DNA from: Plumapathes pennacea
Lineage: Eukaryota; Cnidaria; Anthozoa; Antipatharia; Myriopathidae
Direction of reading: 5' to 3'
NCBI GenBank assembly: GCA_964036295.1
Contig: OZ038467.1
Location: 3,911,501 to 3,975,500, forward strand
Length of the DNA: 64,000 nucleotides
The first letter of the stretch is position 1. Every line of letters begins with the position of its first letter. The position numbers were made by a program, and so were the translations under genes. Below the pieces are notes generated by a model, which worked only from the letters and a program-made list of their open reading frames with translations, was not told the origin of the DNA and ran no database searches. Shown one piece after another: positions 6,201 through 31,346 of this stretch.

Positions 6201-9200
6201 TACTGCTATTCACTTCCGTGATCACTATCCTTTCCGTTTGCTTCTGTTACGTTATTGTGAGGTTAGGTTTGGTGCTCTCGTTTTGTTTTCTTTTTCCGTC
6301 TTTTCTCTTTTCTTCTCTTCTCTCGCCTCCCCTCTTCCCCACTCCACTCCAGTTGTCTTTCTCCCCTCCTCTCCTCTCCACGCTTTTTCTCTTCTTTCCT
6401 CTCCACTCTCCCTCCCTACCCTCCCCTCCTTTCGTTCCCTTTTCCTTTTTACTCTCCTTTCCTCTCTCACGTTCTTTCCTGTCCCCTATGAAGGTCGAGG
6501 ACTGGCAGTCTGTGTACCAGTCCACCACTATCCCCATTCCTAAGTTCCCACGTGTGGACGAGTCCGTGAATTTCATTGGCCGGCTCGCTAGGGAGATCCT
6601 GCGCATAACTGACACCAAGTGAGATTTCTTTGTTTTAAATGCGGCACTTCAGGGGGTTGAAACCTAACAACTATGTCGTGTCCTTATCTTCCTGCACTTG
6701 CTTTCAACTTGGATTAGAAACAAAAACAAAAAACAAAAAACAAAAACAAAAGGAAACGTTAATTAATTAAATACCCGTGAATGTCAATGTCAATCGATAA
6801 TATTGTTCGCAGTGATGACAACGCAGTCACGTGACTAACATTTCTCTCCAGGTTCACGTGCTACATTGATCAGATGGGGGCCTGGTACGACAGTCGCACC
6901 AAACAGGAAATAATGAACATGTTGATCCTGAAGCAGCTGCAGCAGAGCGTGGGCACGTTTGGCCTGACGGGATTGGACAAGCTGTTGTCATTCATGACTG
7001 TCAAAGAGCTGCAGGTCAGGTCTTCCCTCGACTTGCTGCCGTTACGTGTCGACAACTTTCTGTCAAAACAATTTTTGACGCATACTGTAGGATAGACACC
7101 ATTGGGTTCATTTGACAGTTCAGGAGTTGGAAGTGAACACTGTGTTACTGTCGTTCACCGCTTGTTAGATGGAGATTCGGAGCCCACTATGCCCCGGCTC
7201 ACTGTATAAGCTACCCGATTAACGTGGAACGCAAAGTTAAAACGGTGTTACTTTTCTTTGCTGATTTAATGTTTATGTTTCTCTTCTTTCCTCTCCACTC
7301 TCACTCCCTACCCTCTCCTCCCTTCGCTCTGTCTTCTCTTGATTTCTTCAGAAGTTCCTTGGTTTCGTTTACGGAGCGCTGAGAGACAAACTTGTGATGG
7401 ACACTCTTTCAGGGCTGTCCAGGACACTGACTCCAGTCAAGAGTTTAATAAGTAAGCTGTCCTGTTTGTAATTTATCATAGCAAATGCTTTGAACCCAGC
7501 AGTGTCAGTTCTTCGTCTAGTGTGATCGCCCAAGTGAGAATAGTCTTCAGAAAGACTGTTTTTAGTGAGTGATGTTTCGTCCACTTGAGTGGTAGTCCCT
7601 TTATTGGAACTTTACTGTTTCAAGACGTAGTAAGCTAATGATCAGATTTTGTTCTTGGCAGGCAGTCCATATCGAGTTTATCCGCCAGTGTGTCAGAAGA
7701 TGGTGCGTATATGGCCGCAGTATACAGAGGCCGTAATGAAGGTGAAGCACAGTTTCCTGTTATAGAGCGTAATGCTATCAAGTTTATGCGAGCAGGGCTG
7801 GCCTGGTTTGTCGAGATTCCGTAATGGCTGTGAAACACAACACAAATCAGCTGCACGGTTGCACAAGAACCGGGCCAGCCCGGGAAGCTGGCTGATCGAG
7901 ATGCTGCATAATTTGCTCTGACGACGCCTAAAACGGCGTTCAGCGTATTCACGTGAACGTTACGCTGATAACGCTCCCTATTCAGTTTCTGCAGCTTTTG
8001 GGCATCACGAATCGTAATTAACCTTGAGTATCATACTTTTGTTATCATAGATTGGACAAATGCAGCTGATTCGAAGACAGATTGCTAACGAATTGAAGTG
8101 CTCATGCAAGTTTGACTCCAAACTGCTGTGCAGTGCACTGGAGTCGTTCAACCAGTAAGTGTATTTTTTTCTCCTGTTTTTCCAAGAAATTTTCAACATC
8201 GCATGTCTTTGTTGTTTTGGTGTTAGTAGTAGCATTTTGAAACTGAATTTTACACTTGGTAGTTCATTTTAGGCCCTTACATTGGTACAAATTATACTTC
8301 AACTCGTGGTCCTTTTAGGCCCCCAAATTACACTTTAACTTGTGGTCACTTTAGGGCCCTATAAATTGCACTTCAACTGGTAACCATTTTAGTTCCTCTA
8401 CTTACACTTGAACTCGTGGTCATTTTAGGGCCCTTTTGAGGGATGTCGAGGCTCATTACCAGGACCCCAGTTTACCGTATCCAAACGAGGACAACCCACT
8501 GATGTTCGAGCTGACGTCATACCTGGAGTGGGCCGGACTGCACAATCCGCTGAGCAAGGTTACCGCTATTGTGTGTTACTTCTTGTTTTTGTTTCGAATA
8601 ATGATATCAACAGGCATCGCGTTGCTTATTTAGATTTGCGTGGGCCCTGGGCCGGCCACGAGGATCATGTCTGGCGTATGCTATGGACAGTTGTTCGCCA
8701 GTAATTCTGGGTAATACAGTCAACTGTCTCTAAGCGGACATCTCTCCAAGGCGGACAGTATGCAGATTTGTTCCTTGCCGATTTTCACTTATTTCTCTGT
8801 AACTGAACTCTCTCTAAGGCGGACACTAAATCTAGTCTCGGAGGTGTCCGCCTCAAAATTCATCAGTGTCTGTTAAGTTCTGTAAGTCGCGCATGTACAC
8901 GGGTGTTGGACGCTTGAAAATGTGTGCGCTTGCCCAGATATTCGGATAAAATGGGTAGGCAGCTGTAAAATGCGATGTTTTTGGCGCAAAATGCAAGGTC
9001 TAAATTGTATGTATGTTCATATACTTTCTTCCACAGATCTACATAACCACAAAGAAGTACCCGTTCTTCTCGCTACTCAACTTCCTGTGCGTGATTTCTC
9101 AGATTCCCAAGCTGGTGTACGTGAAAAGTGTTGGTACGTGCACACCTGTATCTCCTCTCGCTCTCTCCCTCTCTTTTCATGGCAAAGAACTATGGTTCTG

Positions 9201-10717
9201 ACGACAAACCGACAACGTTTCATAAAATCCTCTCCCCACTGATTTTTCTTCAAAACCATGGTTGCTCAAAACATCAGAACAAATCAATAATGTATCTTAC
9301 GCCTCTTTTCTCACTTTTTGTCTTCAGAAACTATAGTTTCCCGTAAGCCAACATGAAAGCGATAACTTTTCGTATTCTTTCCTTGCTTTTCTCTTCAGAA
9401 ACATGGTTTCCCGTAAGCTAACAACAAATCGATAACTCTTCGTATGTTCTCTCTCCTCACTGTTCTCTTAACCTGTGAGCCAACAAATCGATAAATCTTC
9501 GCCTCACTTCATCTTCAGGAACGATGGTTGCCCGAAAGCCAACAGACCAGATTGATAGCGCTCCGTTCGTCGTGGGCATGATCACTGTGTTGAAGCAGTT
9601 CAACTCGGAGTACCAGGAGCAGTTCTTCTCATGCTGTGGACAGTATGTGCGTTCACTAGTTGAGGCCACTGCCACAAAGTACGTTTTACTGTCATGGAGC
9701 TGATGCAGTTTTAAAAACCAATACATTTTTTCATTGTCTGCAGGGCTTGATAAATTTTCTTCTGACTCACTAGCCTTGGGCTACAGCAGATAACAGAAGG
9801 ATTCAGGGACCTCTCACTTGAACATAACACTCTTTTCAGTGTAGTAATCAACTGTAGATGTCGTTCTTTATACGCGTATCAGTCTGTTAGGTTGTCGGCA
9901 GCTAGCCAGCGCAGCGTACAGAAACTGAACTACAGTGGTTTGTTTTAGATATTTATTTGTGCATATAGAAAGGCGGGAATTCTGGAAGGAAAACATTGCC
10001 CTCTATTGAAGATTTTGTCAGCCCCGGGTGTCGGACCTGCATATTTTCGGGCCTTGTTGGGTCATTACTATTATACTTGGTTACCTGGTAACGGCCTGTG
10101 GTTACAGTTCTATTCACAGTGGTATTTTTGTCTTGTTTTCAGCGTCAGATCAACTGAACTTCCGGCGGATGTAGTCAACCTTCTTGTTTTCTTGGAGGAC
10201 TATATTTCCTACAGTGAACTGCCGAGAAAGGCAAGTGTTTTAAGTGTGTTGTCGTCGTTGTTGCTGTAATTGTTTGAGTGATATTTCCCTGCTGCATTCC
10301 CTTTTCTTCGGCGTCTCAGCTTTGATGTCTGTATCGCCTCACAGGAATTTTGATTCTCTTAACCCGAGACGAAGCAAATGTATAATAGTTTGTTGGGAGA
10401 ATTGCGCGCGAAAGGGAAGCACTAATTTGCTGACTTTGAGGCTTTTTAATTATGTTTAATTCAATTTCAATAACCATGAAAGTGTCTTTTAAAAGTGAAT
10501 GAATTGTTCATAGTATTTCTACATGGAGAAAGCGTGACCATTTAATGAAAGCTGATGATAATACATTTTCGTGGCACCGTTTGTTTGACAATTCCTTAGA
10601 TTTCACATTTTGCAGACAATTTCTAAAAAGTCTAAACTAATTGTTGTTGTCTTTCAGGCGATAGAGGCCCATATTCCGAGCTATGTCTTCGATCAATTCC
10701 GGACGCACACCGCATAA
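229..10717 (+). CDS. WASHC5: WASH complex subunit 5 (strumpellin), 5'-partial, 23 coding exons
   Basis: Strumpellin is a core subunit of the WASH complex, which activates Arp2/3 on endosomes and supports cargo sorting with retromer (family knowledge). Coding exons: 229-355, 964-1085, 2001-2130, 2815-2927, 3041-3148, 3484-3542, 3632-3707, 4330-4440, 4542-4619, 5103-5165, 5344-5424, 5750-5851, 5994-6173, 6494-6618, 6852-7014, 7352-7451, 7662-7741, 8051-8154, 8429-8558, 9037-9133, 9519-9678, 10143-10230, 10658-10717. Together they give about 818 residues in one frame. The first visible residues (LLNYLKEG) lie near residue 341 of the 1159-residue human protein, so the N-terminal third is outside the window. 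Stretches such as [36 protein letters not shown] and [12 protein letters not shown] are near-invariant in animals. Oddities: a GC donor after 10230, a weak GTTTTT donor after 6173, a NAGNAG acceptor at 5991-5996, and tandem decoy acceptors before the exons at 8429 and 9519. No frameshift or internal stop was seen. Identity is very secure; individual exon ends are good to within a few bases. Confidence 0.95.
382..706. repeat. Degenerate interspersed repeat ('ccctattcaagac' family) in a WASHC5 intron
   Basis: Several degenerate copies of a short unit around 'accctgttcaagacaca' are spaced about 40-50 bp apart, ending in a poly-C run and 'gggtatagac'. Related blocks, in the same or opposite orientation, lie at 2205-2500, 49430-49480 and 53995-54215, so this is a dispersed family. 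No coding potential is seen. Confidence 0.6.
1113..1230. repeat. Two-copy 68-bp direct repeat with poly-C core
   Basis: The segment beginning 'cactactgtacatccagg' at 1113 recurs at 1181, each copy followed by 'tcagaccgtgacttctcccc' and a C run (about 20 C in the first). It lies in the WASHC5 intron between 1085 and 2001. The C run is likely length-variable. Confidence 0.75.
1653..1960. mobile_element. MITE with 'ctaatacc...ggtattag' termini (copy 1)
   Basis: The element starts near 'tctaataccctg' and ends near 'cgaggtattagac', giving short terminal inverted repeats. Inside are repeated 'ctgtttaactaaac' motifs. A second copy in opposite orientation is at 13289-13536; the two share 'cggccgttcacaatgcgcgc' (as its complement here) and 'gtgtaattaacacaa'-type blocks. 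No ORF, so non-autonomous. It lies in a WASHC5 intron. Confidence 0.8.
2205..2500. repeat. Degenerate 'gtctgaaatagggt' repeat block in a WASHC5 intron
   Basis: Six or so copies of 'tctgaaatagggt' with spacers of about 35-45 bp. This is the reverse-complement flavour of the repeat at 382-706. No coding potential is seen. Confidence 0.6.
3821..4165. mobile_element. Fold-back MITE in a WASHC5 intron
   Basis: The left end 'cttaaagaggcaatgtc' and the right end 'gacactgtccctttaaa' are inverted. An inner palindrome pairs 'cgaatcttgaaaacattcgccc' (3870s-3890s) with its complement near 3998-4022, around a loop containing 'aagatggcgtcc'. About 345 bp, no ORF of note. It fills much of the intron between 3707 and 4330. 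Confidence 0.8.
4634..5001. mobile_element. MITE with 'agggagtttaag' termini in a WASHC5 intron
   Basis: The left end 'agggagtttaagaaacctag' followed by 'gacggcgacggcaacgcg' is matched, inverted, by 'gacgttgccgtcgtcctc' and 'cttaaagtccctac' at the right end. It begins 15 bp after the exon donor at 4619 and makes up about three quarters of the 483-bp intron, so the intron length is mostly due to this insertion. Confidence 0.8.
6285..6490. repeat. 200-bp pyrimidine tract before the WASHC5 exon at 6494
   Basis: Nearly every base from 6285 to 6485 on the + strand is C or T. The tract directly precedes the 3' splice site at 6493 and could act as an extended polypyrimidine tract. A segment of about 50 bp (6386-6436) is repeated with few changes in the next-but-one intron at 7277-7331. 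Confidence 0.85.
8255..8432 (+). repeat. Tandem array of the 3' splice site preceding the WASHC5 exon at 8429
   Basis: A unit of about 37 bp, roughly 'acttgaactcgtggtcattttaggccc', is repeated. Acceptor-like AGs after a 'cattttag'-type stretch put the next base at 8273, 8319, 8355, 8393 and finally at the real exon start 8429 (spacings 46, 36, 38, 36). Reading-frame continuity and the conserved [13 protein letters not shown] region identify only the last as the true acceptor. Confidence 0.85.
8716..8880. mobile_element. Probable MITE fragment with 'ctctaaggcggacact' motifs
   Basis: The block holds three copies of 'tctctaaggcggaca'-like sequence, with an inverted partner 'aggtgtccgcc' near 8845. 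This suggests a short inverted-repeat transposon remnant in the WASHC5 intron between 8558 and 9037. Ends are not sharp. Confidence 0.5.
9175..9540 (+). repeat. Degenerate tandem copies of the WASHC5 exon 9519 acceptor and exon start
   Basis: The true junction at 9518/9519 reads 'atcttcag' then 'gaacgatggttgcccgaaag'. Degenerate copies occur upstream: 'tcttcag' then 'aaactatagtttcccgtaag' at 9328 and 'tcttcag' then 'aaacatggtttcccgtaag' at 9399, a copy lacking the acceptor near 9460-9500, and more decayed ones near 9180 and 9250. They copy both the splice site and the first 45 or so coding bases. Confidence 0.8.
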
Positions 10718-11270
10718 ATCAGTCCATGTAGAAAATTGTAAAAAGGATACCAAAGTGCACATCAAAGGAAAGTTAATTTACAGTCTATCAAACTATTAAG
10801 GTCATGCAGTACTGCGATGTCTCTTTTCAGCAGAAGATGGAACGTTGCTTCAAAGTCGTTGTGAGGTTTACAGTGTGTAGTTACAACTATTAGTAACCAT
10901 GGAAACCAAAGCTGATTAAATAGAGGATATTGCATATGGTCGCACGAAGACACGAATTTTATCTTCGAATGTTGATGACATCTTTCACGAGTGAACGGAT
11001 CAAACGAGCGAGATTTTTTGATTAACACGAAAAGATGAAGTCGTTTCTCCATGACAATTTATTCGGAGCTCTCGACATCTCTACATGTCATTTCTTACTG
11101 TGGGGATACCGCGTCTTAGAAGTTGGAGACCCCCATTCCATCGATATATGTATACTAAATAGATTTCTTAATGTAAACATTAGGTACTAAAAATGCAAAC
11201 TGAAATGAATCACATATGCTTTTAAAAACAAATTGAAATACTAATAAAGAACACAAAGAGAATATGGCTT
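10718..11270 (+). other. WASHC5: WASHC5 3' UTR with poly(A) signal
   Basis: AT-rich non-coding sequence follows the TAA at 10715-10717. A canonical AATAAA lies at 11243-11248, followed by 'tatggctttatggtctcg', giving a 3' UTR of about 550 bp. The cleavage point is inferred. Confidence 0.6.
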
Positions 11271-11337
11271 TATGGTCTCGTTTCGTTTTCAGCCGTTTGA
11301 CATGGTCGTTTTTACAAGCTTTGTATCTAACTAAAGT

Positions 11338-11510
11338 GCAGGGACCGGTTTTTCAAAGCACGATTAAAATAAGCAAATCCTGGGTCAGTTGTGTCTAAAC
11401 TTTGTTGTCATTTTTCAGCCTGAAAATGAGAAGTTTTAGCTCACAAAACAACACGTCTTTGTCATTTTGAGCTAGAACTAACTTTTTTGGTTAGTCTTTG
11501 ATCTAGACTG
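11338..11510. mobile_element. Fragment of a 'gggcccggtttttcgaaag' MITE family
   Basis: Begins 'gggaccggtttttcaaagc', like the full element at 48757-49009, and contains 'tcatttttcagcctgaaaatg' and 'gagctagaacta', which recur near 31110-31200 in a UTP20 intron. Only one end is clear here. Confidence 0.5.
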
Positions 11511-11528
11511 TAGTTTGTTGGCTTTCTT

Positions 11529-11582
11529 CCGCAGAGGCTCCCTAGGGGAGAGCGAGCGTACACTGAGAAGCCTCTGCGGAGG
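11529..11582. other. Short hairpin-forming inverted repeat
   Basis: 'ttccgcagaggct' near 11529 is complementary to 'agcctctgcggagg' near 11569, with a loop of about 27 bases containing 'agcgagcgt'. It could be part of a small transposon remnant. Function unknown. Confidence 0.6.
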
Positions 11583-12059
11583 AGAGAAAGGTTTGTTGGC
11601 CAAAAGCACGAGGGAAAGAAAATAGGCCCCTCAATACAAATTTACAAATTGTATTTTACAAGTTGGACTATTATTCAACCCATTATTTACCACTAAACGG
11701 ACTGTGACCTGACAAAAGTCTGTATAACGTAAAAAAAATCAGGTCTCTAATGCAACAGAATTTGGCCGTAGTAGATTAAAGCGTGTTTAAAGTGTGGAAA
11801 ATTTTCAGTTTTTCTAACCCATTGTCCCGACAGACGTAGTGAAGTTGGTTGGTTGCCTATGACAACAACCCGCAATTTCCACAATCTTGTGGCAAAAAAT
11901 AAATATGAAGGGCCATTTTAACACTTCCAAACAACATAATTTGTGTTATAATGCTTCTCGTGGTACTTTAATAGTACGTGATCAAATCTAGCAAAAGTTC
12001 GCTTTGATTTCAAGCTTCAGATGTTATGTTGACAGAGGGGAAAAGTTGGTCTTTTGCAG

Positions 12060-12597
12060 GATTGACAGTGCAACTCAAAACAGCTCAAACATTCACCCAA
12101 AGCGAAATCCAAGACTTGTTGAAAACCGAGAATTGCAAAACGTCGACGGAATAGTGAGTAATTCATGCAGTGATTCTTCATAAATAATTTGACAAATTTA
12201 GATTCTTAATTCGCAAATACTGTCAGGGACGGTTTGTCAAATAAATAGATTTATGCTAAATACTCGATTCTCTGCATGCTTCCGTAAGTTGAAGAAACCA
12301 TGCCCAACTTTGAGAAGAAGTAGTAAAATCCACAAGAACATCTGCCCCAAAACTTCTTAAAATCTAGCGACACGACTCTAGTACCAGGCGGCTAAAATCG
12401 TGCCGTCATCAACACTTATTTACAAGATTGATTTTAATTGATGTTAGAATATCTGAACCGCCGCTGTGTTTTTTCAGCTTTGTCTTTGAGAAGTAACAGG
12501 TGCGTCCCTGACCCGAACTTGACATTTGCTGAGCAGCGTCCGTTTACAACACACTACAAAGATTGTCCCCAAGACGGTGAACAGCTGAAAATCCAGG
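12060..12597 (+). other. Two exon-like islands in intergenic DNA (unassigned)
   Basis: Island A (12060-12153) has a good acceptor ('cttttgcag') and donor ('gtgagt') and can read LTVQLKTAQTFTQSE. Island B (12478-12597) has an acceptor ('ttttttcag') and a donor ('gtatgt') and reads RCVPDPNLTFAEQRPF then TTHYKDCPQDGEQLKIQ, cysteine-containing and protein-like. Their phases do not join directly, so a further exon or decay would be needed. I recognise no family. They may be exons of a small unannotated gene, a decayed gene, or chance. Confidence 0.3.
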
Positions 12598-13288
12598 TAT
12601 GTTTGGGCTGTAGGCGTCCATGAGCTCTATCAGTATTCCCTCGCGTTTATGTCAGTACTGTTGTCTTGGAACAATCTACAACATTTTATATACATTTGCA
12701 ACGTTTTTTCTGCACGAATCTCGCGATGCAGTCTATCTATTGGCCGTAGCTGAAGAAGATGTATAGGAACCTAACGATTTTTCTTCACGTAAACGGTTAC
12801 CCTTCCACTAATATCCGATGGGAATCTTTCGAGGTTTTTTGAAGCTCTCAAAGTGCTTTCTAGGCCATTACATAAAGTAACAAAACATTACGAATGGACT
12901 CAGTATAAACGTTCTATTTCGAAATATAATCTTTGAGATGTTGAACCATGCATGTATGATAAAAATTAAGAAGACTCGTATATAGTCTCTCCTGGCGATG
13001 GTGTTGACAAATAGCATGTTAGTCTAACACTGTAGGTAATTCAACTTCTTTTTTTCTGATGATCTTTCTCTAAGCGATGCTTGGCTAAAGAAATACAACA
13101 AATTCACAGATTCCTTCTACAGAAACCGCCATTAGTTTTTTTCCAGCATTCATTCATTGCTCTGGGCGATAAGATCTATACCTTTAGAAGACCCGAGATT
13201 GCTTTAAGTAAAACGAATACAAAATGTCGAGCGGCATCTTATACTGCGTCGTGTTTGATTCAATTGTCTTGACTGCATGGACAGAGCC

Positions 13289-13536
13289 TAATACCTCGTT
13301 CACACCAATGCTTAAACCTGTTTAAAAGGTGTTTAATAAAACTTGTTTAGTTCGGTCGGCCGTTCACAATGCGCGCACGGCAAAACTAAACTGGTTTAAA
13401 ACCCGTCCAACTAAACAATATGTGCGAGGTGGTGTAAAATGTTGTGTAATTAACACAAAATAAAAACAGGTTCAGAAAACGTAGTCTAGTAAACTTGGTT
13501 TAATTAAACCGGTTTAGTTGGTGTGAATAGGGTATA
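13289..13536. mobile_element. MITE with 'ctaatacc...' termini (copy 2, inverted relative to copy 1)
   Basis: Begins 'cctaatacctcgttcacacc' and ends 'gttggtgtgaatagggtata', and is the reverse-complement relative of 1653-1960. It lacks the extra 'ctgtttaactaaac' copies of the first element, so it is shorter. Intergenic, no ORF. Confidence 0.8.
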
Positions 13537-13801
13537 ACCCACACTATCGACTTCGGTGTCCTATTCGTTAGTATTGTTTTTCCGTTCATTAGCAAACACG
13601 GCGTTACACTCCATCTTTAAAGTAACCACGAAAGCAACACTGAAATCGTAGATTGTGTATGTGTGTCTTTCACATCTATCGAGTGGAGAAAACGAAGTCT
13701 AGTTTGCTGCAGATTTTAAGGGCCCATCTAAGATCCGCGCTAAACTAGGATCGGCATTGGCGCGTATTCGCACTTGAAAAGTCAGTCGATTTGACGACGA
13801 T

Positions 13802-14001
13802 TTAACTCACAAGCTCAAAATACAGATTCTCGTAACCTTTTAAGAAAGAACTGCGAGGACTATGTAGTGAGAGTTGATAGTTTGATCAGTTTTTATCTCG
13901 GCAAGATGTCAAAAGCCAAACTCTCCTTACTGCATGATATGTCGCTGGTGAGAAACTGAAGGAGAAAATTGAGGTTGATCACTCTTGGGAGTGAAAGGGT
14001 T
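13802..14001. mobile_element. 'ttaaccctttcactccca' family MITE (copy)
   Basis: Contains 'caagctcaaaatacagattc' at the left and 'cactcttgggagtgaaaggg' at the right. Matches the complete element at 26587-26793 over its whole length; a decayed inverted copy lies at 14676-14862 and a half copy near 41821-41870. Confidence 0.75.
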
Positions 14002-14475
14002 ACGAAAAGTCATTTTTTACACTTGGCTTGCATCTTTAGGCAGTGTCAACTAAGAACTTTCGAAATTCTTGAAATTGACAAAGAATTTAATTCGGTATGG
14101 TTTGAGCATAATTGTTTTTTCGAGATCAGAACTGGGTTTGTTCAGGCCAAACAGCTGAAACAACTTTGTCATTATCAATTTGGTAACTTTTCACAGCTTT
14201 TAAATTTGATGAGATTCTGTGCATAATGATACAGTGTAAAATCACTGTTCACACTCGGCTTGAAGAACTTTCGAAATTCTCGAAATTGATATACAGCACA
14301 AAGTGGACCAAGAATTTAATTCGATATCGTTTGGGCAACATTTGTTTTTCGAGGTCAGAACTGGGTTTGTTCAGGTCAAACAGCTGAAACAACTTTGTCG
14401 TTATCAATTTGGTAACTTTTTTTACAATTGTTAAATTTGATGAGATAGTTATGTGCATAATAATACAGTGTAAAG
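14002..14475. repeat. Two-copy tandem duplication, about 240 bp per unit
   Basis: Copy 1 (about 14003-14240) and copy 2 (about 14241-14475) share 'gaactttcgaaattct', 'cagaactgggtttgttcagg', 'caaacagctgaaacaacttt' and 'aatacagtgtaaa'/'gatacagtgtaaa', with several small indels. Both are non-coding; the divergence suggests an old duplication. Confidence 0.85.
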
Positions 14476-14675
14476 AAGATATAGCCGCCTGGTTTTTTAT
14501 TTGTCTATACAGATCCTCTTAGCGCTTCAGAAGTTCTCACTGATTTCACAAACAGGCGCAGTTTAAATACTCAGCAAATTTTGGCCTCTCTTTGGTGCAC
14601 CGGCTGAGCGATCCTGACGGCTGCGTGGCAGGAGGCAACCATGTCAGTAAATTTATAAGAGTGCCGGTCAACTTC

Positions 14676-14862
14676 GATTTTCTCCTTCAATTTCTCACCA
14701 GAAATATATCATACATTAAGAAGAGCTTAGCTTTTGATAACTTTCTAAGATGAAAGCTGATTGAACTATCAATTCTCACTATCTTTTGCTCACATTTTCT
14801 CTTAAAAGGTAGAGAGAATGCATTTTGAGCTTGTGATTAAAAGGGTTAGAAATAATTAAAGG
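14676..14862. mobile_element. Decayed inverted copy of the 'ttaaccctttcactccca' MITE
   Basis: 'ttttctccttcaatttctca' at the left is the complement of 'tgagaaactgaaggagaaaa' in the copies at 13802 and 26587; the right end has 'tttgagcttgtgattaaaag'. Between them is the usual body, partly decayed. Confidence 0.65.
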
Positions 14863-14954
14863 TGAAATGCAAAACTAATGATTTTTCTTTGTCCTGTAGC
14901 AACGCTCATAACCCGTTTCTCCTTTCTACCTCAGAGCAGAAACACCTCTGATCG

Positions 14955-15252
14955 CGTACAAATAATAAAATAAAATAAATAAATCACTTTATTTAAGTCT
15001 CAATGTATTTAGCACTTGCCGTGCTAATTGGGGAGACTTGAAATGCAGAAGCCAAATATCATAAACTGAACGCAAATGTGTTAAGAATCCCAGCTGGTCG
15101 GAGGCTAACCAGTTGGCTATTTACATAGTGTGGCCGAGGATTTGAACTCAGGGCTACCGTGTTGCAAATTCAGCTAGTGGTCAGAGCGGGACTTGAACCT
15201 GGGACCTCCGGATTTCAAGTCCGGCGCCCTAACCACTCGGCCACACTGCCTC
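14955..15252 (-). mobile_element. tRNA-derived SINE, apparently dimeric, with intact pol III boxes
   Basis: On the minus strand the 5' head (15250-15177) is tRNA-Ser-like: 'tggccgagtgg' fits the A box and 'ggttcaagtcc' the B box, with an anticodon-like stem around 'cttgaaa'. It is not a working tRNA gene: the acceptor stem does not pair well and there is no long variable arm. Further along (about 15165-15120) a second T-arm-like piece, 'gttcaaatcctcggccaca', suggests a dimeric head. The 3' end is an A-rich tail containing 'aataaagtgatttattta', ending near 14955. Confidence 0.75.
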
Positions 15253-15355
15253 CCTCAACACAGTACACTGTAGGCAAGGACTATGAACCATGAATTCTCG
15301 TTGTATCACCCATTATACTGTCTCGTAATAAGTGGTAGAGAAAAGTTGACTCTCC

Positions 15356-15800
15356 TTGAGCCCTGGCCAAACGAGGTGCAAGTCGACACAAGTCGATGTA
15401 AGTTTTCAAACTTGCGCTGACTTACGTTTCCTTTGGTCACCAACTTGCATGGACTTGCACCGACTTGCATTGAATTGCATCGAATTTGAACATGTTCAAA
15501 TTTTCATGCAAGTCGAAGCAAATGTCACCTAAAACAGCAAAGAGCGCGTTAGCAAAGGCAAGTCTAAACCAAGGAAATCAAAGTAAAAAGCCTACTCATT
15601 AAGTTCTAGCTCAAGCGAGACGCTGACTCGCATTCTGAATCATAACCGTAAAAAATGAAAATGTTTTCACAAAACTTGCCTGAGCTTGCATCGACTTGAG
15701 TCTCGTTTGGCCACCCTTTTGCAAGCCGATGCAAGTTTACTTTCATGTAGAACTTGCATCGACTTGCGTCCACTTGCATCGCGTTTGGCCAGGGCTTTAC
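15356..15800. mobile_element. MITE with 'gccctggccaaacg' termini and 'acttgca' sub-repeats (copy 1)
   Basis: The left end 'gccctggccaaacgagg' is inverted at the right end 'cgtttggccagggc'. The interior carries many 'acttgcatcgacttgc' sub-repeats in both orientations. A diverged copy with similar ends is at 45270-45560. It lies just upstream of the secreted-protein gene. Confidence 0.8.
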
Positions 15801-15990
15801 TATATTTTCTCCAAGCTTTTTCCAAAACCATATAGTGACTCTTGTTTGTGTATTTGTTTTTTGAGGTATTTTTTGTTCACGTATATTATTTTCAAAGGAT
15901 TCTGCGTTTTCCTGGCTGATCTATTAATTGCCCTGCTTGCCTATAATGTGTATTTTTGTTTGTTTGCTTCTCCAGCAATCTCTTACCAAA

Positions 15991-18900
15991 ATGTTCAAGC
16001 TGTGTTTGGCTTTACTTGCTGTATGTGTGGGCACTTCAGCTAACCCCGTTGTTCAGCCACTAGTTGTCTCTTGTGAGGAAAGGTTGACGTCCATTGTAGA
16101 CGATCCCAACCAGTTCTGCGCTCAGCTGCGTGAAGCTTACTCGATTGTGAACGGTGCCATCAAAGATGTGGAGAAGACGGTAGGAGCTTGTGACTGTTTT
16201 AGTACACTGCAGTCTATTAATTTCCCCTCAGCCTTCAACTATAAGACGAGTATTGCTAAGCATGTAAGGGGCTGGGGGGTATAGTTATAGTGGAAACAAC
16301 ACGCAACAGCAAAAGGAGGGGAAGTTGTATTGCTTCTGTACCTGCAGTGCATGTTGCTTTTTCGTAACGGAAATTTGATTTTTACCACAGCAAACTAGTT
16401 TCTCGCTCTCTGATTGGTGGATTTACCGTGGTAAATAAGAGTCCAGACAACGATGCTGACGCCAGCATGTCACGTTTTGCAGCGAAATACAACGAAAGTT
16501 TCCTGTATATTTCTAAATGTTGTGGTAAAAAACAAATTTCCACTGGTTTGCCGTGGTGTGGACTCTTATTTACCACGATTTACGTCATCACATGGTCAAA
16601 ATTAGTTGCGGACTCACTCGGCGAAGCGCCTCGTGAGTCCACAACATTTTGACCATGTGATGACGTAAATCGTGGTAAATAAGAGTCCACACCACGGCAA
16701 ACCAGTGGAAATTTATTAATTAGAGTTGCTGATTGCTAATCAAATGTATTAATCGTGTATCATCAGATTAGTGAGAGCTCCGTGGAAGCTGTGGAGGATT
16801 TCTCGGGGATTTTAGAATCCACCGTCCGATATCTCAAGCAGAGGCTGCCGTCTTTCCTTCCCGTGCGAATCACCCGTGACAGTGAGAACCGCGAAGCTCA
16901 AGGTAAGCACCGCTGGTGTTCTGAGCCTACGGTCATCTTGGATGCGTCTGGTGATCTGGTGACTGATGATTGTACAGTGCGTTGTGGTCAAATACTGACA
17001 ACGAACTGAGAACAGCTCAAAGAATAGGAACTTGAAATTAAATATATAGAGGATATTACACGGCGGCGCGAAGATATGAATTTTATTTTTGAGTGGTAAA
17101 AACAATATTTTACGAACGAGCGCTACGCGAGTGAGTAAAATATTGTTTTTACCACGAGAAAATAAAATCCATATCTTCAAGCCGCCGTGTAATTTTCTTT
17201 TTATTATATTAGACACGAGTGTTTTACGAGAAATTGCACAAACAACCGGGCAAAAGCGGGAAATGATGCCAACGATATCCTCACTAGTGAGGATATGGAA
17301 AATACGCCACTCGGGTCCCGGATGTAGTTTCGTATGGATTTTACGCACGGTATATTTTCCAGTAAAACACTCGTGTCTATATAATAAGAGTCTTTATTAT
17401 ATACATACTGAGACATACTCACGAAAAAGCCATATCGTAAAATTTCGTACGCAAATGAGTTCTAGCCAATGAGAGGCCGCGAACGACGCTTTTCACACGT
17501 GAAAAAAATCGTTCGTCCAATCACAAGCTGCGAACGACGATTTTTCACTACTTTTAAAGGGTTTCCCGGTCCCATCATAAATGTCTCAGTATGTATATAA
17601 TAAACAGAAAACATCATGGAAAGTGCTTTGTACAGTTTTTATTCACTCGTTGTTTCGTATCATAAAACTCACTCGCTCGCAAAGCCTCGCTCGTTCGTTT
17701 TATGATACTTCACAACTCGTGAATAAAAACCGTACGCGCGCACTTTCCATGAAGTAATCTCTATATACTATCCTGTTAGTATTCGTATTGTTGCCACTGA
17801 GCTGACGTCATACTTCAGTGACGTCATCTATTCACTCAATGTGCCTAGTCGAACGAACTGTGCACATGCACGAGTAATCAAGTTACGATGTACACAGAAA
17901 GTTTTGGGATTTTAATACCTGATTGTATTTTTTGAACGCTGATTGGCTGAGAAAACGATATCTGATCACAATTTCATCTTTTGGTCATAGATTACTACCG
18001 CGAATTCCAGGACCTCATAACCGATGCCGCCGATGCTGCCGTCGCAGCAGACTTGGCAGCAAGTGAACAGATACGCCAGGCAATTCTGGAGGCCGTGGCC
18101 GAGCTTCACCAGAAGGAAGACTTGATTAGCCAAGGAGCGCAGAGGCTCCTCAAGAATATGATGCAGAAGCGCTCCGCTCAAGGTGAGAGGAATGCGCTTT
18201 CCGACCTACAATAGGCTGCAAAACAGTCCCTTCTTTGTGCTAGAATTTTCTACAGTTTAGTTTGCCACGAGGTTCAATATGTATTACAATCGTCTGAACT
18301 ATGATGAAAAGAAGCGATGTTATTTCACGTAACTCGATAGGGCTTGTTCATTTCATCGTTCGATGAAATACACAGAAGACAACCATCTTGGATTTACCGA
18401 CATCGTCCGATTCTCGGTCGTGAGGCAATCGGATCTAAACTCGTTTTCAGTCTTGCGCGGCTGTCCTTCCCGTTGGTACGATTTAGGTACAACCGTCACA
18501 CAACCGTAAACCAATCGGACCCATTCCCCTCGCGTGATGTTTGCTTAGTTCCCAGACCGTGCACGTTCCCTTTAACGTTACCTACCAAGCTGTTATTGCC
18601 GGTAGTAAAATAAAAAATAAACAGACGTATATTGTTTGTTTCTTTCCTTGTTTGCTATTGCTCCTTGTGTTTATTCTTGTTTTTGTCCTTGTCCTTGTTA
18701 TTGTTATTGGTTTTGTCCTTGTCCTTGTTCTTTTTGTGTCCTTAGCTTTATCTTAGTCGTTGTTATTGTCTTTGTCCTTGTTCTAGCTTATCTTTGTCTG
18801 TGTCCTTGTCCTTAGCTTTATATTAGTCGTTGTTATTGTCTTTGTCCTTGTTCTAGCTTATCTTTGTCTGTGTCCTTGTCCTTAGCTTTATATTAGTCGT

Positions 18901-20488: not shown

Positions 20489-21862
20489 TTTTTTTTTGTC
20501 GTATGGTTCTACCTGGAATAGGTGAACGCGAATAGTTTGTATCTCCGTGGGTAAAGAGTAAAACGAGCTTAGCTCTGGTATTAGTCAGAAAAGGGTATAC
20601 GTGTACAAGGAAAGATTAAACTAGTTAAACGCTTGAACGTTTACTCTTCATTGTTGACGGCTGCAGGAGCGCGAGCGGGTCCTAGCGATCTAAAAAGTAA
20701 ATTGCTCTAAACATAACCCGAAACCCAACTCTAACCCTAACTCTAACCCTAGGCCTAAAGAATAATAACATAATAAAATAATAATAAAAAATAAAATAAA
20801 TAAGCGCGCACAAAAACTCCAATATAGAAAATACTCTCATATCATTCCGTGGTTGGGAGCGGGAGCCTTTACATAAACTACTGAATATAATTTGACAAAA
20901 TGTAAGTCTTAAGTTTTGTTATTCTACTGGGTAGCTTTTCTTAAATTTCAAGCAATTCTAATTTTGGTCAAAAAAGTTGTTGATTGCATATGGCACATGC
21001 TTTTCTTCCGAAAAATGACATGGAACGGGGTAATTGGTACAGCAAACATAAAAACTCAACAGGAAAAGAGAAGGAGAAAACAGGGAAAAATTGCCAGGAT
21101 TTCCTTGCCGGGGGATGATGAATTTGTAGCGTTCTAAAAATCCCTGGGCCCAATCCAGATACACTGTAGTGTTGTAAGATAAGACCAAATGCTGCATGGG
21201 TGGTGCAACGTAACACTGGACGTAACACTGAAGTGGCTTGTGATATTTGGGGAATTTTAAAATATTTCTCGCGGTATTTATGCGAAATACCCCTTGAAAC
21301 CATGCTACTACATATACAAATAATTAGCGGTTTGACCTGAAAATCCCTGTGCAGAGTTAACATGCATAGCTAGTTCTGTGCAATGAGTTATAGATTTTCC
21401 AGTCATTGAACTGTGAGTTATAAAATATAGCAGGAAAACCATGGGTTAGTTTGAATTGCCTTTGTATGAAAAACGTGAATTGTTGGTTGAAGATTTGCTC
21501 TTATTTCTCGCGCCCGGCAGTATCAAATATCAAAAACTACACACAGAAAAGTTTTCTGAAAGGTTAATGCGATTCTGAAATTAGACCAAAAATGAGTATT
21601 TTCTGAAATGTGACTATAGCCCATGGATCATTTTTCCCATCAAAAATAGTAGTTTATTATAGCCCTGAAGTGTCTAGCGTGTTACTTAGCCTCCATTTTT
21701 TATTACAACTGAACATCGATCGAAAGTGGCCAAATGTATGTCTGAGTACAAATGTTAAATTTTAAAGCATACAGACAAATTTTGGCGCTCAACTTTTCGA
21801 AAATTCTGACAACCTGGTGTTCGTTAATTTTCTTGTGTCATAGTTGTGCTCAGCGCCACAGT
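20489..21862. other. Intergenic DNA after the secreted-protein gene
   Basis: Contains a likely 3' UTR with AATAAA near 20772-20777 in an AT-rich stretch, a degenerate telomere-like run (20712-20753, 'ctaaccctaactctaaccct') and a dispersed block at 21142-21222 ('aatccagatacactgtagtg' to 'cgtaacactgg') that recurs at 23520-23583. No convincing gene is seen. Confidence 0.5.
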
Positions 21863-22147
21863 TAAGGTAAAGTAATACGGGCAACATTTTCTTGCAACTT
21901 GTCGCGCAACAAAGTTGCGTAGCAAGTTGCGGCCTATTGTTGCACGTATTACTACCTTCGCACGCAACTTGTTCTGCAACAAAATTTCGTGTTGCGAGTT
22001 GCGGCAACATGTTGCAAAAAGTAGAAGCCGAGTCTACGAAATTTTGTTGGGTACGTAGGTACGTGCAACACAGGCCGCAACTTGCTACGCAACTTTGTTG
22101 CACGACGAGTTGCAAGAAAATGTTGCTCGTATTACTTCACCTTTAAG
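21863..22147. mobile_element. Fold-back MITE, left copy ('aagtaatacgggcaac' ends)
   Basis: Starts 'aaggtaaagtaatacgggca' and ends 'tgctcgtattacttcacctt'; the first and last 85 or so bases are inverted copies rich in 'gcaacttgttgc'-like motifs. No transposase. A copy in opposite orientation ends the right arm at 24622-24907. Confidence 0.85.
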
Positions 22148-22866
22148 GCGCCTCCGGAGTTTCATTGGGTGCAATCGTCTATGACAAACTTTACGCGGAT
22201 CATAACTTTTTTGGCTTTTATGCGATTCCTATAAAACTTTAAGAAACGTTGCATCTATCATTCAGCAATAATATGACAGAAAGCAATAAAGAAATAATCA
22301 ACCAGTTTGCAAAAAAATAAAAAAATAAATAAATAATCGCGCCGTGGGGAGAGCTGTCCGGATCCCAAGCCAGTTCGAGGGGCAACCCTTGCCTAACACC
22401 CGTCCACACTCAACGAACGGGGAGAGGTAATTCGGCCCCCAAGCCATGGTGAATTATCCCTAAATCCGAAGAGCGCTTAAATGCTAAGCCGACTTATTAA
22501 TTATATGCACCGAATCAGCTATATATAGTTTCAGGCAAGAGGTCATTCATCCATATGGGATGCACCTTTTTATCGTCGTTCCTTGCTTTATGAATAATAA
22601 TTGCACCGTCCTATTGTTATAACCGGTTCAGCTACTTCTATATCCCCGAACCACTTATCCGACTTTGAACTTGAGGTTCAATGTCAGAAAGGCCTGTTAT
22701 AGCAACCTTGGGGCTCGGCGCATGCGCAACAGTACCTTTGATTTTTCTTAGTGAGACTGTGGCTAATCTTGTATCCAGACTCTTCCAGATTGGACATTGG
22801 ACATTTTTTTTTTTTTTTTTTTTTTTTTTTTGAGACGTTCACTAACAACTTTTCAGCTTCGGCTTC

Positions 22867-23877
22867 GGCTTCAGCAAAAGCATTGACTTCATTATCACTT
22901 GTTGTATATTCAACTGTTGCTTTGGAAATATCGATGGCTCTGCAAGTCTGTCGGCTGTTTATATTAGCCTCCAGTTTTTTTTTTTTTTTTTTTTTTTTTT
23001 TGCAACATTTTTGTGTGCATGTTCTCAGTATATGGTGTATTCGACGGCGATGTGTTTCCTCCGTATGTCCCCAACTTTGGCAACGAGATAGTGAGATATA
23101 TTAACCTGAGGTATACTGAAGAGAATAACGTTGTAATGGATGTACCTGCCACTAGAAAGCCCTCCTCGCACGTGTGAATTTATGGAAAATTATGTTGACA
23201 TTTACAACTTTTCATCAGATGAATGTGCTAACAATATTCGCCTACAATGGAACCCCGGTATAACGAAAGAAGTTTTTTTCTTTTTTTTTTTTTTTTTTTT
23301 TCTTTTGCAGCTCGACCGGCCAAAGTTACAGGAAATAAAATGTATAGAACAGAATATAACAAACGCAATCAAGAATCCTAAAGTTACAATCTATTCCGAT
23401 GAAACAAATAAATGTCAAACTTACAATTTACCCCGATAAAACGTCACGCGACGGTGATTGGCATCTCGAATCAGATCAACACAGAAATGCTTTAACGCAT
23501 TAATCACCCAAAGCCATGGACCCAATCCAGATACTGTAGTATTGTAAAATAAGACCAAATGCTGGATGGTAACGTAACACTGGTTAATTTTAAAGCATAA
23601 ATTAACCAAACCCCGATAGAACGAATGCTTTGGTCGTTTGGCACAAATTCGTTATAACGGAGTTTCCGATATAATAACCCCCCGACATAACGAACACAAT
23701 TTTCCAGTCCCGGGACACTTTGTTAGTCCCACAATCAGAGTATTCTTTGAAGACGTACCGGGGTTTCCAGGGGGAAAACTGTTTCCTCGTGGATTCAAAC
23801 GAATGGGCGTGATCAAGAGAAATTGATAGATTTTGATAGCTCTCGATAAAAACTCGATACTGTCGGTGAAACTCATG
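22867..23877. mobile_element. Loop of the composite inverted repeat, with Tigger/pogo-like terminal fragments
   Basis: Contains 'ggaaccccggtataacgaaa' at 23249 and 'aaaccccgatagaacgaatg' at 23609, which resemble the ends of pogo/Tigger-type DNA transposons (family knowledge), poly-T runs near 22977 and 23274-23301, and a copy of the 21142 dispersed block at 23520-23583. No transposase ORF is recognisable. Probably nested, decayed insertions. Confidence 0.5.
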
Positions 23878-24621
23878 AAGCCGAAGCTGAAAAGTTGTTA
23901 GTGAACGTCTCAAAAAAAAAAAAAAAAAAAAAGAAAGAAAAAAAAAAGAAAGAAAAAAAAAAAGTCCAATGTCCAATCTGGAAGAGTCTGGATACAAGAT
24001 TAGCCACAGTCTCACTAAGAAAAATCAAAGGTACTGTTGCGCATGCGCCGAGCCCCAAGGTTGCTATAACAGGCCTTTCTGACATTGAACCTCAAGTTCA
24101 AAGTCGGATAAGTGGTTCGGGGATATAGAAGTAGCTGAACCGGTTATAACAATAGGACGGTGCAATTATTATTCATAAAGCAAGGAACGACGATAAAAAG
24201 GTGCATCCCATATGGATGAATGACCTCTTGCTTGAAACTATATATAGCTGATTCGGTGCATATAATTAATAAGTCGGCTTAGCATTTAAGCGCTCTTCGG
24301 ATTTAGGGATAATTCACCATGGCTTGGGGGCCGAATTACCTCTCCCCGTTCGTTGAGTGTGGACGGGTGTTAGGCAAGGGTTGCCCCTCGAACTGGCTTG
24401 GGATCCGGACAGCTCTCCCCACGGCGCGATTATTTATTTATTTATTTATTTTTTTGCAAACTGGTTGATTATTTCTTTATTGCTTTCTGTCATATTATTG
24501 CTGAATGATAGATGCAACGTTTCTTAAAGTTTTATAGGAATCGCATAAAAGCCAAAAAAGTTATGATCCGCGTAAAGTTTGTCATAGACGATTGCGCCCA
24601 ATGAAACTCCGGAGGCGCCTT

Positions 24622-24907
24622 AAAGGTGAAGTAATACGAGCAACATTTTCTTGCAACTCGTCGTGCAACAAAGTTGCGTAGCAAGTTGCGGCCTGTGTTG
24701 CACGCCGTACCTACGTACCCAACAAAATTTCGTAGACTCGGCTTCTACTTTTTGCAACATGTTGCCGCAACTCGCAACACAAAATTTTGTTGCAGAACAA
24801 GTTGCGTGCGAAGGTAGTAATACGTGCAACAACAGGCCGCAACTTGCTACGCAACTTTGTTGCGCGACAAGTTGCAAGAAAATGTTGCCCGTATTACTTC
24901 ACCTTTA
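24622..24907. mobile_element. Fold-back MITE, right copy
   Basis: Reverse-complement copy of 21863-22147, differing at a few positions (for example a two-base insertion near 24704). Its outer end at 24907 is the boundary between the inverted repeat and UTP20 upstream DNA. Confidence 0.85.
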
Positions 24908-25095
24908 TTTGCTCGAATTGTTCGTCTCCAGGGCCATTCACGTGAGAAACCCACTGGGCCTGGGGACGAGGTTGCCCAGGCCCTCTCTTTTCGGGTATCA
25001 ACATGGCCGCAACGTATGTTTACCACATGGCGCACTGTTAAAGACACATTTCAGCGATCTGGATACTGGATTCTGGATACTGGAAGCTCAGAGAA
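24908..25095 (+). promoter_or_regulatory. UTP20: Putative UTP20 promoter and 5' UTR
   Basis: Only 188 bp separate the inverted repeat from the start codon. It holds an E-box CACGTG at 24939-24944 and a YY1-like 'caacatggccgc' at 24999-25010, plus a short 'ggatactgga' direct repeat just before the ATG. E-boxes are common in ribosome-biogenesis promoters; their use here is inference. No TATA box is evident. Confidence 0.4.
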
Positions 25096-28000: not shown

Positions 28001-31000
28001 CCACTTCTGCAGGCTTCTCTTGGGCTGGCCAAATTTCACCCGAGAAATCCTTCCCTTACTTTTGAACTGCTGCCAGACTGAACTTTGCAAAAAAGATCTG
28101 GAGTCTATTGAGATGGAAGAAATTGTGTCTATCCTTATCAGTGCGATTCTTGCTGATGTGACTGATGATGGTACTGGTCTAAAGCTTTCAGCAAAGCAAG
28201 GTTTTGTGTTTTTCCCAAAGTGTGGCACAAAAGCAGGCAGCAACATCCTGAGGAGGTTCCTTGATGTTTTGAAGATCGAGAAGCAGATGGTCTCAGCCCC
28301 AGATAAAGTGGATTTGATTTGGGGGGTACTCGTTTGCATTCCATGCATAAGGTAACTTTAGTAAACTCTTTATCTCTTTGTTTTTTGCTTTTTTTTTTTA
28401 ACTCGATCTCCATTGAAAGAGTCACGCAGTACAACACCGTGCAGAACATCGCAACACAACATAGTCCAACAGCACACACAACAGCGCAACACAGCACAAT
28501 TACAACACTGCACTGTACAGAACATTGCAACACAACACATTATCACACCACACTTGACGGCCACAACACAGTACAGCACAAACATACACCGTACAGCACC
28601 CAAGTATGGGACAGCATAGCACAGATGTGAACTAGTAATTTCTTGTAACTAGTCGTCGAACAGTGAACAGGTTATAACCGCAACGCACAGCACAGCTCAT
28701 TACGCACAGCACAATACAATGCGTACAGTATTTCCACAGTTCAACACAGTTCAGAACCGTACCGTAGAGTACAGCATACTGTAGTAGACTAGAGACTATT
28801 TTTGCTTAACAAACGCTTCGTATGCAGACCACTGGATGCGCCCGCCTGTGCAGAAGTCCTGCTTCCCTTCATTCAACAACTGTGCGGTTTCTTGGAAGCA
28901 GAAGAAGGCGGTGCAAAGGAGAGGTGGCTGTTCGTCCTCGGTCAAGCTATCAAGTCTTTCCTGTTCGTCAAGTCAGTGTCCAAAAAAGACGATGGAACTT
29001 TGGACTTTGGGTTTGTCCTGAAATTGCTCAGGTAATGTCAAAGGTTATCAAACGTTTTTTTTAACACTGGATATTTGGTCGTATTTACAATAGGGTTACA
29101 TTATGTCTGCTACTGGTGGGATTTATTTACAGAGTTGTACTTAGTGTCCTGGTCAAACGGGCTCGTAAGTTGAGCCAAATCATTACAAAACCAGACCTTG
29201 AGTACGGACTTGCGATGGTTGGCTAAATGGATTCGAAAGGTCACAAGGCTTGAGCATTTTCTTCTGTTTCATTAGCTATGAGCTAGCAGGTTGATGTCGT
29301 TCTTGTGTTGCTCATCGCACAACTTGTCTGGAAAAGAGAAAGACTCCTCGCGCGTTAGTCTGAAATTGTCAGCCGTCTCCTCCCCATGCCCCCGTGGGAG
29401 CGATCAGAGGAGACGGCTGATATTTCAGACTTCTAGCCCATTGGCCACAGAGCGAACATCTCTTGTTATCCTCAGGTGCCGCGCTAACGGGTTTTTCGAG
29501 CCCTCAAATCGGCTCAGAAGGGATCAATTTGCGTTGACCTGTTGTGGGTGACCGAACGGTGACAAACATGCGTCGATTTGCTTGCAAATTTGAACTCGAG
29601 CAAACTTACTGTACTGACCCAAGTGGGGGGCCAAAAAATACACAAAGTCGAAAGTTTGGCCAGGCTTTAACAGACGCAGAAGTTAGATTGTCGAGTGTCT
29701 TGTTTACCCCGTTGTTGTTCGAGAGAAACTAGTCATCTGGTTTGTCTTTACTTTAACTTTAATTAATCCTGACTTCTGGTGTATAAAAGATGACCATGCC
29801 ACTGATTATAGTTTGTTTTACACACAGCAACTGGCCGAGTAATGTACACGTGCTCCAGGCTTGCGCCAGTATTGTGTTACAAGCCAAGAGACTAGGTCAG
29901 AAGACTGTTGTTTCGACAGAGAAACTCCAAGAAGTGTTTCCACTTATTCAATCAAATTTATCTTCGTCTGTTCACACAATACGACTGTTATCATTGATGC
30001 TTCTGGTGACTTTTGATCAGATGGATTTGCAACCTACAGAAGAGGTAAGCGCATTATTTCTCAAGTCATGCATGAAAGCTTGAATACTGTAAGCTCACGC
30101 TTGGACTCTCATTTCATCCCTCCCCATTGGTTGAAATTGTTTCTTACAGCTTCTACGATTGATGGTGTACTTAATTTAATTGGTTTCGACAGTCATCTGA
30201 AAACCGCTCTAATCTATACTGTAGGTTCTGGAGTAAGCAACGCATTAAATTACACTTTCATTGCACGATTCATTCATTGTACGATTAGCCTTTCGTGTAT
30301 TTTGAAATCTTATTTTCCTTTGAACAGAATCCGTCAGAGAGCAAGTGCAATTTGAGTTTACTTTCATCGTACGATTAAGCTTTGTATAATTTGAAACTTT
30401 TTTTCCTTCGAACAGAATCCGTTAGGGAGCAAGTGCGAATTGAGTTTACTTTTCATCGTACGATTAAGCTTTCGTATATTTTAAAACTTTTTTTTCCCTT
30501 CGAACAGAATCCGTTAGGGAGCAAGTGCGAATTGAGTTTACTTTCCATCGTACGATTAAGCTTTCGTATATTTTAAAACTTTTTTTTCCTTCGAACAGAA
30601 TCCGTTAGGGAGCAAGTGCGAATTGAGTTTACTTTTCATCGTACGTTTAAGCTTTCGTATATTTTAAAACTTTGTTTTCCTTCGAACAGAATCCGTCAGG
30701 GGGCAAGTGCAATTTGTTTAAGATCTGTTTGGACGCGGAAAGGATCCCTGCTACTCTAGACAGATACAGAGATAAACTGGTGTGTCTGCAGAGGCTTGCA
30801 TTTTCACCGTCGTACGACCAAACGTTGCCAGACCTCTACAAAAATGTCGCCCCACAGTATTTGATTGGCTCGCTATTCATCAACTTTAGTCCCTTGTGGA
30901 GTCCTGTTCTTGAAATTCTCAAGAGTTTTACACACAGCTCAAATGCCAAGAACTTCTGGACAGTGTTCAATCAGCACTTACAAACTGCTGCAGACAGTGC

Positions 31001-31346
31001 AGGTAAGCCTTTTTTGAATACCCTTCCACAATATTACAGAGGTTATTCATAGGTTGTTCGAAGTACGAATACAATGTGGGCTAATTCTGGGTTAGGTATA
31101 AACTTTGTTGACATTTTTCAGCCTGAAAACGAAGAGTTTCACTCACAAGACGACTTCCTTACTGTGCTTTGAGCTAGAACGAACTTCTTATAGTTTGTCT
31201 TTGATTAAAACTTAAATGGGTCCAATGTCGAACTTCACATGAACTTAATAATGAATTGAGTTCAGGATATTTGAAGTACGGCGTTTGACCTGGGCCTAAG
31301 GGATACGTTAAAGATCATCAAAACTATCAGGCGCATCTCTTGTTTT

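Follow-up and report, generated by a model that had tools for sequence, protein, structure and literature searches.

Tandem copies of 3' splice sites in three introns of WASHC5 and UTP20 resemble the mirage minisatellites of amphioxus

Results

The window analyzed here, a stretch of 64,000 nucleotides of contig OZ038467.1 (positions 3,911,501 to 3,975,500 of the forward strand), contains exons of the genes for WASHC5 and UTP20, both read from the + strand. Three introns, two in WASHC5 and one in UTP20, were found to carry a tandem array made of copies of their own 3' splice site. All positions are given relative to the first letter of the window unless stated otherwise.

Array 1 is located in the WASHC5 intron at 8155..8428 (donor CA/gtaagt, acceptor tttag/GG), across which the joined reading ...NQALLRD... 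is unbroken in the Pfam family Strumpellin. The array covers 8250..8434 with a unit of about 37 bp, in which the 3' splice site is followed by about 6 bases of the exon. The AG of the real acceptor precedes position 8429, and upstream copies are found before 8273, 8319, 8355, and 8393. In a tandem-repeat scan (TRF) the array was recovered at 8289-8434 with 3.9 copies and 72% matches. The copies have only about 6 exon bases in common (GGCCCT), so that in essence it is the intron end that is repeated in array 1. The exon 3' of it (8429..8558) matches positions 966-1008 of Strumpellin (PF10266) with residues 1-43 of 43.

The WASHC5 intron at 9134..9518 consists mostly of sequence from array 2, which extends over 9213..9566 with a unit of about 71 bp, in which roughly the last 20 bases of the intron are joined to as many as 48 from the start of the exon. 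The real AG precedes 9519, and two further copies, before 9399 and 9328, carry an AG. Two copies are without it, one at about 9255 having lost the AG and one at about 9470 having the AG region deleted. The array is diverged and is missing from the TRF list. The exon 3' of it (9519..9678), from which the coding bases in the array were copied, matches Strumpellin positions 1043-1084 with residues 2-43 of 52.

Array 3 (30273..30720) is located in the predicted UTP20 intron at 30045..30689 and has a 91-bp unit, to which the intron contributes about 64 bases and the exon about 27. The real AG precedes 30690, with copies before 30599, 30508, 30416, and 30328 and a possible additional, more decayed copy near 30225; the tandem-repeat scan gave 4.9 copies of the 91-bp unit with 92% matches. 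The exon 3' of the array (30690..31002) is placed by the gene model and by alignment to human UTP20. The inner copies are 94-99% alike, whereas the outermost copy (30328) is only 83-84% like any other, and the motif CAATTTG is common to the outermost copy and the real exon where the inner copies read CGAATTG. This is the edge pattern of minisatellite turnover, in which inner copies are homogenised and outer copies diverged. Arrays 1 and 2 are too diverged for homogenisation of their inner copies to be judged. A T- or pyrimidine-rich stretch is present inside the units of arrays 2 and 3.

Two other repeats lie in front of exons in this part of the window. A near-perfect inverted repeat at 21864-24905, in front of the UTP20 exons, has arms at 22062-22831/23935-24704 (770 nt, 99%) and 21864-22063/24706-24905 (200 nt, 99%). 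Shortly before the predicted exon at 19264, a degenerate array of the TTGTCC type (18662-19217) has a 70-bp higher-order unit in 4.6 copies with 98% matches.

The three junctions (bases -40 to +40) were used as probes and compared to 300 dinucleotide shuffles per intron. For arrays 1, 2, and 3 the junction probes scored 30, 30, and 59 compared to shuffle maxima of 15, 17, and 19, corresponding to z values of 13.6, 11.6, and 27.4. The first 30 bases of the exon side alone were significant for array 2 (z 10.0) and array 3 (z 13.7), while for array 1 the exon side alone was not significant against the shuffles with either 30 bases (z 0.8) or 60 bases (z 1.2). An earlier reading of the window from sequence only had claimed tandem acceptor copies before 8429, 9519, and 30690, and all three were found in these places, far above the shuffled background. 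The first coding bases of the exon, which it had seen copied along with the acceptor in two cases, are included in arrays 2 and 3 and only just in array 1, with its 6 or so exon bases.

The genome (290 Mb in 24 contigs, an animal's to judge by its genes) was searched with each whole array, using a DNA search that skips very common words, and each array matched only at its own locus. The unit of array 1, with up to 3 mismatches allowed, occurred 3 times in the genome, every time within array 1. With units unlike in both length and sequence, and each matched only at its own locus, the three arrays are separate, local events in two genes, as the sequence-only reading had proposed.

We compared the joined WASHC5 exons to the Strumpellin profile in order to see which copy is native. 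Profile positions 934-1084 correspond to residues 1-151, i.e., 151 for 151, with no net insertion at either WASHC5 junction, and each of the two exons alone matches the profile from its first or second whole codon. Since the joined exons are collinear with the family profile, the exon copy is the native one in WASHC5, and the upstream copies are derived from it. The copy of array 2 at 9328 reads ETIVSRKPT followed by a stop where the exon reads GTMVARKPT. The opposite possibility, that the start of the exon was created by the array, is ruled out for both WASHC5 exons by the collinearity with Strumpellin. A comparison of the WASHC5 fragment to solved structures gave no match. For UTP20 the predicted protein was aligned to the human chain (7mq8_SP), and no gap was found at the junction next to array 3; here it is the length alone that speaks against an exon start made by the array.

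The strength of the acceptors was scored with a matrix built from 208 predicted introns, and sites of at least 3 bits were listed. The introns of the sample described below had a median of 9.3 bits. In array 1 the real acceptor at 8429 scored 4.4 bits, while the copies at 8273, 8319, and 8355 scored 4.8, 4.9, and 5.9 bits, and the copy at 8393 fell below 3. In array 2 the real acceptor (9519) scored 8.8 bits and the copies 11.4 (9328) and 13.8 bits (9399). The real acceptor of array 3 (30690) scored 7.1 bits, compared to 8.8, 7.3, 8.0, and 8.2 bits for the copies at 30328, 30416, 30508, and 30599. AGs outside the arrays but in the same introns, at 8227 (8.3 bits) and 30150 (7.8 bits), also outscore the real site, and the acceptor score alone therefore does not pick the site used. 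Translation onward from each of the 10 decoys (4 in array 1, 2 in array 2, and 4 in array 3) ran into a stop within at most 22 codons in every case.

The AG-bearing copies of array 2 are followed 14-15 bases past the AG by a GTAAGC donor, which scores 4.7 bits in each copy compared to 4.9 bits for the donor of the intron itself. The splice scores thus define two candidate microexons on the + strand, one of 15 nt that is in frame (9328..9342) and one of 14 nt that would shift the frame (9399-9412). Use of the 15-base in-frame microexon at 9328-9342 is conceivable.

The frequency of such copies was surveyed in about 295 of 304 kb, a sample of the genome comprising the window, the adjoining 40 kb, and 200 kb of contig C1 (the C1 block). 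The satellite at 55.4-64 kb of the window was excluded from the sample; this array (55412-64000) consists of 24.7 copies of a 348-bp unit with 95% matches and reaches the window end. A self-trained gene finder with hand correction gave 207 introns. The 30 introns shorter than 150 bp were dropped from the main count, as were low-complexity probes (4 acceptor, 0 donor, and 224 interior); in an earlier count only the 8 introns shorter than 80 bp were dropped. In WASHC5 the gene finder skipped the exon at 8429 and returned a model with two stops that was apparently fused with the next gene. We therefore removed the introns that it predicted across any part of 7702-9037 or inside 9133-9519, and entered the introns 8155-8428 and 9134-9518 by hand. 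The WASHC5 introns at about 7703-8048 and 8559-9036 were left out of the counts.

In the main count (introns of at least 150 bases, copy score of at least 17) 5 of 173 acceptors had a junction-spanning copy upstream, and 1 of 177 donors had one downstream. Upstream copies were found at 179 of 4315 interior positions; averaged per intron, this rate was 4.4% (bootstrap 2.8-6.3%). An internal local duplication was present in 44 of 169 introns. The acceptor rate in these 295 kb did not differ from that of the interior positions (binomial p 0.46). Sequence-reversed controls at score 17 gave 1 acceptor, 0 donor, and 8 interior copies. No significant excess of acceptors over interior positions was observed with any of six intron selections at three thresholds (p 0.07 to 1.0). 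The lowest of these values was obtained without the three discovery introns, where the acceptors had fewer copies than the interior (2 of 170 compared to 3.8%). The earlier count, which used random interior positions, agrees with this (5 of 199 acceptors with a score of at least 17, compared to 48 of 795 positions).

A profile of duplicated probes along the introns was also made. At 80-200 bases upstream of acceptors 77 of 1095 probes were duplicated (7/164 to 13/148 at single offsets), while nearer the acceptor, at 60, 40, and 20 bases, the counts were 6/164, 3/166, and 5/163, followed by 5/176 at the junction and 4/176, 2/173, and 3/171 inside the exon. The count at the donor junction was 1/176. 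Elsewhere, 142 of 1168 intergenic positions and 21 of 700 positions in exon interiors were duplicated. The acceptor profile had no peak at the junction, and the density of duplications fell toward the exon. Such a profile would be expected if duplications arose locally at random and were purged within exons and close to them.

The sequence-only reading had suggested a process anchored at intron-exon junctions and had proposed a comparison of junction copies to copies at other intron positions. Carried out on the sample of about 295 kb, this comparison does not put the acceptors above the interior rate, the outcome that the reading itself had named as its refutation, and with no peak at the junction and a copied exon length that varies from case to case (about 6, 48, and 27 bases in arrays 1, 2, and 3, and 15 in the case described below) anchoring is not supported.

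A further acceptor case was found at position 127793 of the C1 block (L024, C1:3120001-3130000), with copies 90 and 153 bases upstream. The gene around it is predicted and has ankyrin, SH3, PDZ, and SAM domains, the arrangement of SHANK. The phenomenon is therefore recurrent, with this well-supported case on another contig, as had been supposed along with a possible genome-wide spread; the dedicated junction process that was supposed to underlie it is not supported. The acceptor case at 50140 of the C1 block was counted despite a doubtful gene model, and the sole donor case (159256 of the C1 block) lies in a model that seemingly joins neighbouring receptor genes.

Apart from the arrays, 17 matches to zf-C4 (nuclear receptor) were found in the genome, each nearly whole in one open frame, and three of these, of almost equal score, lie within 100 kb on C4. 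A set of 17 nuclear receptors would suit some cnidarians better than amphioxus, although no weight is placed on this.

Discussion

The arrays in WASHC5 and UTP20 are most probably minisatellites of the type known as mirages in amphioxus, arising as a by-product of frequent intronic duplication and not from a process aimed at splice sites. Mirages were reportedly described in the amphioxus Adh gene by Canestro and co-workers in 2002. In the portion of Ebner et al. (2010; PMC3087553) available to us, mirages of the amphioxus globin genes BflGb6 and BflGb9 are described with units of 10-160 bp, decoy AG/GT signals, homogenised inner copies, and diverged edges. Splicing is there suggested by RT-PCR to be undisturbed, and mirages are proposed as seeds of new introns. 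The accessible text of PMC3902484 adds PGBD5 as an amphioxus case and cites troponin C.

The arrays described here resemble amphioxus mirages in being minisatellite-like tandem duplications across an intron-exon boundary, with varied unit lengths and decoy splice signals, in having homogenised inner and diverged edge copies, and in occurring in several unrelated genes. The repeat unit lies clearly across the boundary in arrays 2 and 3 and barely so in array 1, and the units are specific for their locus, differing between genes in sequence and in length (about 37, 71, and 91 bp). Acceptors predominate in our sample, whereas amphioxus mirages, in the text available, are found at both boundaries. 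In amphioxus, splicing and length polymorphism were tested, while the present arrays are known from the sequence of one assembly. We file the WASHC5 and UTP20 arrays as the same kind of repeat, one that is already known. Among the matches listed from the open-licence literature, as far as titles and the beginnings of abstracts tell, none described such repeats in another animal group.

We propose that short tandem duplications arise often and more or less randomly in the introns of this genome, possibly by replication slippage or unequal exchange, and that they would afterwards expand and contract in the manner of other minisatellites. By chance, some of them would include an acceptor. The protein would remain unchanged provided that the spliceosome selects the final copy, which is continuous with the body of the exon, and exon definition may be the reason for this choice. 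The upstream copies would become intron, drift, and remain as a ladder of decoy acceptors, and any mRNA spliced to a decoy would presumably be subject to nonsense-mediated decay.

Several observations weigh against this explanation. As 9 of the 10 decoys outscore the real acceptor of their own array, the faithful use of the last site needs explaining. The gene models are mostly our own predictions. The nine UTP20 codons copied in array 3 fall in a poorly conserved stretch, and the direction of copying, which in UTP20 is read from length only, is for this reason less certain than in WASHC5. Finally, acceptors had more copies than donors at a score of 17 (5/173 compared to 1/177, p 0.12), at a score of 20 (4/173 compared to 0/177, p 0.06), and at a score of 15 (8/173 compared to 1/177, p 0.02). 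The same was the case in four selected genes at a score of 15 (6/87 acceptors compared to 0/88 donors, p 0.01); three of these, WASHC5, UTP20, and the SHANK-type gene, have family matches, and the one at 2761-18085 of the C1 block has none. Altogether, 18 acceptor-donor comparisons were made. The reversed control at a score of 15 gave 2/173 acceptors and 0/177 donors, the looser threshold being more open to matches between pyrimidine tracts. The excess of acceptors over donors exists but is weak, and it is treated as a lead only, because pyrimidine tracts raise the acceptor background and because the discovery cases make up three of the five.

This excess, for which p ranges from 0.01 to 0.62 with the threshold and subset chosen, is also what could be taken to favor a process anchored at the junction, i.e., slippage in the pyrimidine tract, R-loops, or repair-driven duplication that preferentially makes acceptor copies. 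Such a process would fit the occurrence of three cases within 22 kb, and also the T- or pyrimidine-rich stretch that the units of arrays 2 and 3 contain. However, the acceptors show no significant excess over intron interiors, the density of duplications drops toward the junction, the length of exon copied varies (about 6, 48, 27, and 15 bases), and most of the acceptor cases are those that gave rise to the question, so we consider an anchored process unlikely. More doubtful still is that the arrays are functional, with the decoys or the pseudo-microexons of array 2 serving to regulate WASHC5 and UTP20 through alternative transcripts or transcripts destined for decay. The AG is retained in all four upstream copies of both array 1 and array 3, 3 of 4 decoys in array 1 and 4 of 4 in array 3 outscore the real site, and array 2 has AG and GTAAGC 14-15 nt apart, once in frame. 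On the other hand, all 10 decoy translations are stopped early, two copies of array 2 are without AG, young copies retain AG without selection, and amphioxus mirages are reported not to disturb splicing.

Two other origins were also considered. A dispersed repeat or mobile element inserted beside the exons, resembling a splice site by chance, is very improbable. Array 1, sharing 6 or so exon bases and lacking significance on the exon side alone, could be read in this way, but in 290 Mb each array matches only itself, including the three occurrences of the array 1 unit, and the unit of array 2 contains conserved coding sequence. The genome searches reject such an origin; we hold it refuted for arrays 2 and 3, while the search with array 1 is subject to the skipping of very common words. 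Least credible of all is that a repeat was erroneously collapsed or multiplied during assembly. Copy number can come out wrong in an assembly when the copies are nearly identical, as in array 3, and Ebner et al. (PMC3087553) note a mirage that was assembled aberrantly in the draft genome of amphioxus, but the strong divergence between copies in arrays 1 and 2 is not produced in this way, and the outer copies of array 3 differ as well.

The arrays also have features in common with tandem alternative splice sites (TASS), in that several splice sites of the same kind stand in close tandem before one exon. TASS lie within a few bases of each other and do not require duplicated sequence, whereas the present arrays repeat whole units of 37-91 bp. 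A catalogue of human TASS is presented in PMC8055015, to judge from the part of it at hand. Intron gain by tandem genomic duplication (PMC4974935, in excerpt; Rogers, 1989; Zhuo, 2007; Gao and Lynch, 2009, the last three as cited in the available text of PMC3087553) is similar in that a local duplication takes in splice signals and exon bases. In intron gain a new intron forms within a former exon, whereas WASHC5 keeps its collinearity with the protein family at the junctions.

A further-reaching reading, which we regard as a long shot, is that in this lineage 3' splice sites are favored in duplication or in the retention of copies, giving ladders of full-strength acceptors and hardly any at donors, and that some copies, such as the one with AG and GT 15 nt apart in array 2, are becoming microexons. 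Mirages would then be a nursery of exon pieces, possibly beyond cephalochordates.

Returning to the mirage-type explanation, the finding that junction copies occur at about the rate expected from local intronic duplication suggests that no special mechanism is needed to account for them. If the genome is not that of a cephalochordate, the phenomenon would be wider than described. The arrays also offer a natural test of how the spliceosome chooses among equal acceptors, since near-identical sites are placed about 91 bases apart in a housekeeping gene.

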